This document shows, piece by piece, positions 58,159 to 61,267 of a stretch of DNA of 64,000 nt (the stretch's first letter is position 1; every line of letters starts with the position of its first letter). Position numbers and translations under genes: made by a program. Below the pieces are notes generated by a model that was given only the letters and a program-made list of their open reading frames with translations, did not search any database and had not been told where the DNA came from. Source of the DNA: Candidatus Planktophila sp. (GTDB lineage: Bacteria; Actinomycetota; Actinomycetes; Nanopelagicales; Nanopelagicaceae); contig BGOJ01000002.1 in the NCBI GenBank assembly GCA_003569185.1, positions 62,001 through 126,000 on the forward strand. The letters are read 5' to 3'.

Positions 58159-59247
58159 ATGAACCAATCACCACTGGCTGATAGACATTTAGCTCTTAAT
58201 GCAAAGATGGCTGATTTTGGTGGCTGGCTGATGCCAATTGAATATCCTCAAACTGGTGCAATTGCCGAGTACACAGCAGTCCGCCAACAAGTCGGTATCT
58301 TTGATGTTTCACATTTGGGGAAAATCTCAGTAATTGGTGCGGGCAGTGTTGATTTCATAAATAAAATGGTTACAAATGATTTGACCAAAATAACTACGGG
58401 ACAAGCCCAATACACCTTGCTTTGCAATGAGGATGGCGGGGTAGTGGATGATCTAATTATTTATCGTAATTCAGATTCAGATCTATTTCTCATTCCAAAT
58501 GCCTCAAATACAACCTCTGTTTTTGAAATATTACAGAGTAATTGTCCTGCTGGTATTGAGGTAACAAATCTGCATAAAGATTTTGCTGTGCTTGCGGTGC
58601 AGGGACCAGACTCAGCTAAGGTTTTAGGTGAGGTTGGAGTAATAGCAGAGTTAGATTACATGTCATTTGTTCATGCCAAGATTGACAATTATCCAGTTAT
58701 TTTGTGCCGTACTGGATACACCGGTGAGTTTGGTTTTGAAATTATCCCGGCTTGGAAAGATGCGCAGCAGGTATGGGACAAATTAGTTTTAGCAGTTAGC
58801 CAATTCTCAGGTGCCATTTGCGGTTTAGGGGCAAGAGATCTTCTTCGTACTGAGATGGGTTATCCACTTCATGGTCATGAGTTATCTTTAACAATCACAC
58901 CTGTCGAGGCAGGTGCAGGTTGGGCAGTTGGTTGGAGTAAAGCAGAGTTTCGAGGCCGGAATGTGTTACTCAAGCAAACAGAGAGTGGTAGCAAGTTAAA
59001 GTTAAAAGCGATTATTGCAACAGATCGCGGTATTCCACGAAAAGATATGCAGGTAAAGGATTTAAAGGGGCAGATAATCGGTGTAGTAACCAGCGGAACT
59101 TTTTCGCCCGCTTTGAAAAAGGGAATTGGCTTGGCTTTGATCGATTCAAATGTCAAAAAGGATGATCAGGTTTTGATTGATATCCGGGGCAATGACTCAA
59201 CCTTTAAGGTTGTCTCTTTGCCATTTGTGCCATCTAAAGTTCGATAA
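58159..59247 (+). CDS. gcvT: Glycine cleavage system T protein
   Basis: FGGWLMPIEYP, VGIFDVSHLGKISV, RTGYTGEFGFEI, GLGARDLLRTEMGYPLHGHEL. Confidence 0.95.
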   Translation: MNQSPLADRHLALNAKMADFGGWLMPIEYPQTGAIAEYTAVRQQVGIFDVSHLGKISVIGAGSVDFINKMVTNDLTKITTGQAQYTLLCNEDGGVVDDLIIYRNSDSDLFLIPNASNTTSVFEILQSNCPAGIEVTNLHKDFAVLAVQGPDSAKVLGEVGVIAELDYMSFVHAKIDNYPVILCRTGYTGEFGFEIIPAWKDAQQVWDKLVLAVSQFSGAICGLGARDLLRTEMGYPLHGHELSLTITPVEAGAGWAVGWSKAEFRGRNVLLKQTESGSKLKLKAIIATDRGIPRKDMQVKDLKGQIIGVVTSGTFSPALKKGIGLALIDSNVKKDDQVLIDIRGNDSTFKVVSLPFVPSKVR

Positions 59248-59275: not shown

Positions 59276-59437
59276 TTAGCAAGCACCCCATAGACGCCAG
59301 GCGTACTCAGCAATAGTCGTGCCGATGTAGAGAATTCCGATGTGAGCGGAGAGTCCCAAGATTTTTGCAAACAGTGATTTAGGGGCGGTGGTTTTCTTTA
59401 CCGACACAATCACAGGCACTTGATGGCTAGATAACAT
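59276..59437 (-). CDS. 53-aa single-TM small protein, second gene of the riboswitch cassette (absent from the ORF track)
   Basis: MLSSHQVPVIVSVKKTTAPKSLFAKILGLSAHIGILYIGTTIAEYAWRLWGAC*; starts 8 nt after the stop of the upstream gene. Confidence 0.6.
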   Translation of the reverse strand: MLSSHQVPVIVSVKKTTAPKSLFAKILGLSAHIGILYIGTTIAEYAWRLWGAC

Positions 59438-59445
59438 TATTACTC

Positions 59446-59973
59446 CTACTCAGGAAACTTAACATTACCATTATCGGCAAAAACAAAGGCGAGTGAATCA
59501 CCAGGTTTTAATGCTAACTCCGCCACACCTACCTGGGCCCATGCCCACTTAGCATTTAGATCAGCTGGATTTGGCAGTGGTTGCTTGCGCTTTTCTAAGA
59601 CCGCCCAATAGGCAAACTCAGCAGGCATATCTTTGCAACTTTCTATGTAATCCTCATGACCCTTAATACCTATCGGTTCATCAGATTTAGGAAGATTGTT
59701 TAATCTGCAAACAATTGCATCACCATATTTGTCAGTACCTTCTAATTTAAAGTTGGCACTTTTCATTAGCTCTAGCGCCGTGATTTCATTATCTGTGGCT
59801 AGACACTTCTCATATGGCTCACTATTTGGATCTAAGACACCATAATCAATTACAAGATTTACACAATTTTTTGTAGTTTGAGCTGAATAAAAGGTGATGC
59901 CACCAATTATCAGCGCTACTACTGCGATTGCAGGTATGAATTTCTTTCCTGCCATAAAGTACTTACTGAACAT
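59446..59973 (-). CDS. Membrane-anchored DUF4430/transcobalamin-C-like protein
   Basis: N-terminal TM, then CVNLVIDYG...C...TALELMKSANFKLEGTDKYGDAIVCRLNNLP...C...AYWAVLEK...WAWAQVG...LKPGDSLAFVF. Confidence 0.65.
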   Translation of the reverse strand: MFSKYFMAGKKFIPAIAVVALIIGGITFYSAQTTKNCVNLVIDYGVLDPNSEPYEKCLATDNEITALELMKSANFKLEGTDKYGDAIVCRLNNLPKSDEPIGIKGHEDYIESCKDMPAEFAYWAVLEKRKQPLPNPADLNAKWAWAQVGVAELALKPGDSLAFVFADNGNVKFPE

Positions 59974-59980
59974 GTGTTGC

Positions 59981-59995
59981 CTCTCAATTAGAGAG
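59981..59995 (-). promoter_or_regulatory. SD-overlapping hairpin upstream of 59973 start
   Basis: Minus strand CTCTC-TAATT-GAGAG(G)CAACACATG; the 3' arm is the likely Shine-Dalgarno. Confidence 0.55.
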
Positions 59996-60069
59996 TTTCA
60001 CGTAAGCGAAAAAACTCAACTAAATGAGAATTCCCGCCCCGCAATCCTCGACGGGTGGTAAAAAAATAA

Positions 60070-60157
60070 AATGTGTTGGGTAATCCGACTTGAAAAGAAA
60101 TCTTTCTCACGGTTGCGGGACAGCGTCGGATTTACACCGACTTCCCCCAGTCACATT
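60070..60157 (-). ncRNA. Cobalamin-family riboswitch aptamer
   Basis: Minus strand AATGTGACTGGGGGAAGTCGGTGTAAATCCGACGCTGTCCCGCAACCGTGAGAAAG...AAGTCGGATTACCCAACACATT; conserved CTGTCCCGCAAC core; AATGTG/CACATT closing helix. Confidence 0.9.
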
Positions 60158-60265
60158 CGTTTTGCTTTCGTTATTAAGTTGTAGGCGGATTCTGCTGGTA
60201 AAGCGGAGAATTAGCAACTCACCACGCACATTGCAAGCCATGCCCGATCTAGTTATTGTTGGAAT

Positions 60266-61267
60266 ATGGAATATAGACGCCTTGGCAGTACTGGAATGTA
60301 TGTCTCAGAGATTACCTACGGAAACTGGATAACCCATGGCTCCCAAGTAGAAGAGCAAGCAGCGATTAAATGTGTGCGAGCTGCATTAGATCTTGGAATT
60401 ACAACCTTAGATACCGCTGATGTTTATGCCGGCACCCGTGCTGAATCGGTAATGGGCAAAGCACTCAAGGGTGTTAAGCGAGAGTCATATGAGTTATTTA
60501 CCAAGGTTTATTGGCCAACTGGTACTGGAAAAAATGATCGTGGGCTTTCCCGCAAACATATTATGGAGTCATGCAACGCATCATTAAAAAGATTGAAAAC
60601 AGATTATGTGGATTTATATCAAGCACATCGATTTGATTATGAAACACCACTTGAGGAAACCCTTGGTGCTTTTGATGATTTAATTCGAAGCGGAAAGGTT
60701 TTATATATTGGTTTTTCTGAGTGGAACGCTGAGCAAATAGCAGCCGCGCTAAAGATTCAAGATCAAAAGGGTTACTACCGATTTATCTCAAGCCAGCCTC
60801 AATACTCGATGTTGTGGCGGGTTATTGAATCTGCGGTTGTGCCACTTTCTGAAAAAGAGGGGATTGGCCAAATTGTTTGGTCACCAATCGCCCAAGGTGT
60901 CTTAACTGGAAAGTATCTGCCAGGCAAAAAAGCACCAGCTGGATCTCGCGCAACTGATAAAAAAGGTGGCGCAAATATGATCTCTGGCTTTATGAAGGAT
61001 GAGATTTTAAGTAAAGTGCAAAAGCTGATCCCAATCGCAGCCAAGGTTGATTTAAGCCCAGCCCAACTCGCAATTGCATGGGTGCTTCAAAATCCAAATG
61101 TATCTAGTGCAATTATTGGAGCAACTAAACCTTCTCAAATTAAAGAGAATGTGAAGGCATCGGGTGTTAAATTAGATAAATCCATCATGGATGAGATCGA
61201 TAGCGTATTAACTGGTGTGGTCACAGCTGATCCAAGTAAGACAGTTAGCCCAAAACCACGGGCTTAG
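60266..61267 (+). CDS. Aldo/keto reductase
   Basis: MEYRRLGSTGMYVSEITYGNW, LDTADVYAGTRAESVMGKAL, DLYQAHRFDYETPLEETLGAFDDLIRSGKVLYIGFSEW. Confidence 0.92.
   Translation: MEYRRLGSTGMYVSEITYGNWITHGSQVEEQAAIKCVRAALDLGITTLDTADVYAGTRAESVMGKALKGVKRESYELFTKVYWPTGTGKNDRGLSRKHIMESCNASLKRLKTDYVDLYQAHRFDYETPLEETLGAFDDLIRSGKVLYIGFSEWNAEQIAAALKIQDQKGYYRFISSQPQYSMLWRVIESAVVPLSEKEGIGQIVWSPIAQGVLTGKYLPGKKAPAGSRATDKKGGANMISGFMKDEILSKVQKLIPIAAKVDLSPAQLAIAWVLQNPNVSSAIIGATKPSQIKENVKASGVKLDKSIMDEIDSVLTGVVTADPSKTVSPKPRA

Follow-up and report, generated by a model that had tools for sequence, protein, structure and literature searches.

The acI bacteria, which rank among the commonest microbes of fresh water, are difficult to grow. 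An ECF cobalamin module under the control of cobalamin/AdoCbl riboswitches has been described in four acI strains, acI-B not being among them (Kang et al. 2017, PMC5301498). acI-B is predicted to be auxotrophic for AdoCbl, and a putative cobalamin transporter was reported only in acI-A (Hamilton et al. 2017, PMC5574706). Bacterial SLBB proteins encoded next to CbiO/CbiQ-like genes have been described in B12 auxotrophs, where a role in B12 scavenging was inferred (Burroughs et al. 2007, PMC1796856).

We analysed a window of 64,000 nucleotides (contig C2, positions 62001–126000, of an 868-kb, ∼64% complete genome) and found in it a cobalamin riboswitch followed by two small genes, P1 and P2. This cassette is real and functional, and it belongs with the SLBB-ECF cobalamin systems of actinobacteria as a variant that has no ECF machinery. 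The genus carrying it is probably Ca. Nanopelagicus, acI-B; those relatives whose records carry names are Nanopelagicaceae from fresh water, the SAGs AAA027-J17 and AAA028-A23 among them.

Riboswitch, gene layout and conservation of the cassette

The AdoCbl riboswitch RF01482 was matched on the minus strand at 60171–60027 over its full length (1–149 of 149; 59 bits against a gathering cut-off of 50 bits, E 2.7e-8). It is the sole Rfam match above the gathering score in a cmscan of the whole window, and RF00174 also exceeds its own cut-off at this riboswitch (36.9 vs 31.5 bits). The first-pass annotation had proposed a minus-strand B12 riboswitch with an AATGTG/CACATT closing helix. The covariance model agrees with this reading, and the closing helix is part of a 7-bp helix in an alignment of 13 sequences. 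The window's genome has one cobalamin riboswitch above the cut-off, that upstream of P1, and the aptamer scored above the gathering value at all 18 related P1 loci scanned. Cobalamin riboswitches occur in 177 of the 201 sampled genomes of the family. In the two complete genomes of P1-bearing relatives, G018 and G001, P1 and P2 are the only genes under such control.

Two structures may link the aptamer to translation. A putative Shine-Dalgarno-sequestering hairpin, CTCTC/GAGAG (59981–59995, minus strand), lies before the P1 start codon; its five pairs are kept in 13 of 13 sequences, with one-sided changes only and no covariation. It is likely, judging from the sequence, to be part of the P1 expression platform. 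A putative competing helix, GAGTTTT/GAAACTC (59993–60017, minus strand), is paired in 94.5% of the alignment cells, again without covariation, and has three columns in common with the hairpin. If formed, it would release the Shine-Dalgarno sequence. As these helices pair without covariation, we treat the platform as a prediction.

Second cobalamin riboswitches were seen elsewhere in the family. In G030, a genome with P1 and NrdJ, one lies upstream of nrdH-nrdI-nrdE (L140:8664–8812, minus strand), which we read as a possible means of choosing between class I and class II ribonucleotide reductases in response to B12. In G164, one precedes a gene that is cut by the contig end and whose secreted product has about 220 aa or more (L147:4412–4553 plus; L202:1100–1768 plus).

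The order on the minus strand is riboswitch, P1, P2. P1 (59446–59973) encodes a 175-aa protein that has a hydrophobic anchor near its N-terminus (roughly residues 11–32) and an extracellular transcobalamin-beta/SLBB-like domain. P2 (59276–59437) encodes a 53-aa single-TM protein with a conserved C-terminal T..A...WR.W motif. It starts 8 bp past the P1 stop codon, its TAGGAG Shine-Dalgarno overlaps that stop codon, and the two genes are translationally coupled. P2 ends 28 bp short of the convergent gcvT (58159–59247, plus strand; PF01571, E 3.7e-83, and PF08669). The divergent upstream flank is an aldo-keto reductase gene (60266–61267, plus strand; PF00248). The open reading frames and the gcvT match thus uphold the earlier description of an anchored protein and a tiny single-TM protein as the only genes between the riboswitch and gcvT, as well as the statement that no ABC, ECF or Cbt genes adjoin them.

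BLAST detected P1 in 14 of the 25 genomes sampled from the genus, with 66–94% identity across the genus, and in none of the 176 sampled from the rest of the family. P2 lies downstream at all P1 loci, occurs only together with P1 and was found in no sampled genome outside the genus. It matched no Pfam family, and hence gave no CbtB match. Purifying selection acts on both genes (dN/dS about 0.04–0.19 for P1 and 0.04–0.34 for P2). The presence of the riboswitch at 18/18 loci and of P2 at every P1 locus, together with this selection, argues that the cassette is not a product of chance. The neighbourhood survey suggested in the first-pass annotation therefore shows P1, P2 and the riboswitch conserved together.

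Fold of P1 and the B12 slot

The annotated DUF4430/transcobalamin-like nature of P1 held for the fold and not for the family name. By sequence, P1 matched nothing in Pfam, NCBIfam or the PDB, ten distant homologues gave no DUF4430 match in Pfam, and a profile search of the PDB with the P1 family returned nothing relevant. The AF2 model of the domain, built from a 32-sequence alignment that includes distant homologues, reached a pLDDT of 93.2 and a pTM of 0.88. A model from the genus sequences alone (pLDDT 55) was discarded, the distant homologues having raised the quality. Foldseek placed the beta domain of human transcobalamin first among the PDB entries (5no0, E 7.5e-4, probability 1.00; 5np4 has probability 0.99). 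Transcobalamin holo structures, 3u7z from R. gnavus and haptocorrin came next and intrinsic factor lower; the remaining matches had far lower probabilities. The resemblance to transcobalamin has a TM-score of about 0.5, about 11% identity and a modest Foldseek E-value. Since the sequence profiles reach neither DUF4430 nor any PDB entry, homology to transcobalamin is argued from the fold. The beta-grasp domain spans residues 36–175 (59449–59868, minus strand) and contains four conserved cysteines, an AYW motif and a conserved W and G. All P1 members have the N-terminal hydrophobic helix, and lipobox-like signals are present in distant homologues.

With a P1 profile, homologues in the unpermuted order were detected in a further 25 genomes of actinomycetes (best E 4e-27). 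At 19 of the 20 loci examined, ECF-T, ECF-A and ECF-S genes are their direct neighbours, and a cobalamin riboswitch is present at four of these loci.

The position of the cassette is informative as well. Within the family, the interval between the aldo-keto reductase gene and gcvT serves as a B12 slot, with the same flanks for the P1, ECF and Btu versions. In several genera it holds a riboswitch, a secreted 'YRYWGYFQAAPGA' protein, ECF-T, ECF-A and ECF-S (L136, L137, L138, L142 and L201), and in a sister genus (G034) it holds a riboswitch, BtuF, BtuC and BtuD. That sister lineages keep an ECF or Btu transporter here is context that lay beyond the reach of the first-pass annotation.

The 'YRYWGYFQAAPGA' protein of the ECF loci contains the P1 domain in circularly permuted form: its two halves align with P1 in the crossed arrangement (hhalign E 1.6e-6 and 7.9e-6) and not in the uncrossed one (0.3). 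A half-swapped permutant profile scored 60.1 (E 8e-10) vs 36.8 unswapped, 100 column shuffles gave at most 20.0, and the maximum of a rotation scan was the half-swap. The permuted transcobalamin-beta-like domain is the first gene of the Nanopelagicaceae ECF cobalamin operon, for example at L138:9883–10416 on the minus strand. A single locus thus shows three interchangeable B12 systems together with a circular permutation of a transcobalamin-like domain.

As the slot elsewhere contains a full ECF module and these genomes are streamlined, we considered that the cassette could be a decaying remnant of an ECF operon, retained by chance. Its dN/dS values well below 1 for both genes, the level of P1 identity within the genus and an intact riboswitch at every scanned locus contradict decay. 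In addition, P2 is unlike ECF-T, ECF-S and ECF-A, and P1 is not the permuted form of the family's ECF operons, so the cassette did not arise by simple truncation. We regard a remnant as highly improbable. As to P2, a search for an ECF-T, ECF-S or ECF-A remnant gave no profile match, and an hhalign match to the permuted protein (2e-4) covered only 7 columns and was disregarded.

B12 requirement and transporter content of the genomes

None of the 25 genomes of the genus has CbiC, which marks de novo B12 synthesis, and complete G001 and G018 carry MetH and the AdoCbl-dependent NrdJ. The two complete genomes have no second ribonucleotide reductase match to the NrdJ model, though in G030 the class I NrdE reaches about 226 bits with it. 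From these model matches, NrdJ is probably their sole aerobic ribonucleotide reductase. With both enzymes present in the two complete relatives and CbiC missing, B12 appears indispensable to the cells. Across the genus, P1, a B12-linked ECF module or FecCD occurs in 18 of the 19 genomes with NrdJ or MetH vs 1 of the 6 without (Fisher p 0.0006, a value that ignores phylogeny and comes mostly from drafts). Five drafts (G042, G069, G117, G141 and G147) show no signals of the riboswitch, P1, NrdJ or MetH, which suggests a B12-independent sublineage. In the window's genome, outside the window, NrdJ is split over two frames (G000:C2:47600–49424), by a frameshift or an assembly error.

These associations also bear on what P1 binds. 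SLBB domains bind diverse ligands (PMC1796856) and the annotation of 3u7z suggests a metal-binding protein, which leaves room for a ligand other than B12, such as a corrinoid precursor, haem or a metal, that is regulated with B12 status. The AdoCbl riboswitch, the B12 slot and the co-occurrence with NrdJ and MetH all point to B12 instead, and we give such a ligand a very slim chance.

P1 and a B12-linked ECF module were mutually exclusive in the genus (0 of 14 genomes with P1 vs 4 of 11 without, largely drafts). The first-pass annotation had envisaged a B12-capture module working with a transporter encoded elsewhere. The capture part is well supported, as a prediction, by fold, regulation, slot and co-occurrence; the transporter part is not, as none of the tested families was found in a complete relative. 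A known-type B12 transporter (ECF, BtuCD or BacA) elsewhere in the genome would suit the fact that P1 homologues usually partner ECF, and EcfT does occur away from the cassette in some P1-bearing drafts. However, a model search of complete G001 and G018 revealed no EcfT (PF02361), FecCD/BtuC (PF01032) or SbmA/BacA (PF05992), which refutes this explanation there for the tested families. In G018, whose P1 is 94% identical, searches with tblastn or hmmsearch also detected nothing homologous to the EcfT, EcfS, BtuC or BtuF of the family, the EcfS and BtuF searches covering this one complete genome. PF01032 is found in none of the 14 genomes with P1, PF05992 in none of the 25 genomes of the genus, and of BtuFCD-like components the P1/P2 genomes tested show general ABC ATPases only. 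The EcfT on the one P1-bearing draft contig inspected (G105) belongs to CbiMNQO. Taken together, it is very unlikely that P1 and P2 serve a known-type transporter.

Some candidates and neighbouring systems deserve mention. The strong EcfT/CbiQ matches in P1-bearing drafts were rejected as B12-ECF on account of the inspected case, a Co/Ni transporter. That cluster (L206:2497–5030, plus strand) encodes a Co/Ni ECF transporter of the CbiMNQO type, in a genus that does not make B12. A weak CbiQ match in G030 was also set aside, its neighbours being rodA/mreD-like genes. Another member of the genus, G075, has a FecCD/BtuF-type ABC cluster (L143:2920–5377, plus strand); MetH is present there, the riboswitch and P1 were not found, and the contig is too short to show the slot. 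Of the 54 mid-size membrane ORFs surveyed in G018, 10 were scanned with Pfam; nine belong to other families, one had a weak YitT match, and none of the 10 was a B12-like permease candidate. Other annotated permeases of broad or unassigned specificity could carry B12.

The same findings raise the question of whether P1 and P2 are themselves the uptake system, with P2 oligomerising into or gating a B12 pathway and P1 acting as its loading domain. They are the sole riboswitch-controlled genes in complete G018 and G001, the known translocators searched for were not found there, and P2 is conserved and occurs only with P1. On the other hand, P2 has no nucleotide-binding partner and we know of no single-TM protein of 53 aa that transports a 1.3-kDa cofactor. 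We consider this quite unlikely.

Proposed role and comparison with known systems

We favour, as the probable explanation, that the cassette is an ECF-less, B12-repressed B12-acquisition module in which P1 and P2 feed a translocator of a kind that the models miss. When AdoCbl is scarce, the riboswitch would permit synthesis of P1 and P2; both the OFF direction and translational control are predictions, B12 presumably repressing translation through the Shine-Dalgarno-sequestering hairpin. The N-terminal helix would anchor P1 in the membrane, and its outer domain, which has the transcobalamin-beta-type (SLBB, beta-grasp) fold, may capture cobalamin. P2, conserved together with P1, would be its small membrane partner, possibly in direct contact with it. 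The ECF part appears to have been lost or replaced in the P1/P2 lineage; sister lineages encode in this slot either ECF-T, ECF-A and ECF-S with the same domain or BtuFCD. Consequently, P1 and P2 would have to hand B12 to a translocator of an unrecognised kind, outside the models used.

The cassette is a concrete candidate for B12 acquisition in acI-B, where published work reports no cobalamin transporter (PMC5574706), and it points to a missing translocator. A bolder proposal is that P1 and P2, by themselves or together with a single permease that escaped recognition, constitute a novel type of B12 importer that took the place of ECF in the streamlined acI-B, with P2 as an essential membrane component. 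We hold this to be rather unlikely, and the finding would gain in interest if P1 and P2 proved to be, or revealed, such an importer.

The favoured module can be set against five described systems. BtuFCD occupies the same slot in a sister genus, whereas the P1/P2 genomes tested have no homologue of its binding protein or permease. Solitary BtuM-type proteins (PMC6072759) take up B12 without an ECF module in an organism without EcfT, a role that is predicted for the cassette; BtuM, however, is polytopic and S-component-like, whereas P1 and P2 have one TM helix each. P1 shares the fold of the transcobalamin beta domain (5no0/5np4), but it is bacterial and membrane-anchored and has no alpha domain. 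With the SLBB proteins next to CbiO/CbiQ (PMC1796856) it has in common a surface-anchored beta-grasp domain, a cobalamin-linked context and B12 auxotrophy, and it differs from them in having no CbiO/CbiQ-type genes, no Pfam DUF4430 match and no alpha/alpha toroid partner domain. The acI ECF cobalamin module resembles the cassette in the type of riboswitch and, among the acI relatives analysed, in the slot and in a first gene that encodes an extracytoplasmic SLBB-type protein; compared with it, the cassette has no ECF-T, ECF-A or ECF-S, has an SLBB domain of normal order rather than a circularly permuted one, and has P2 in addition.
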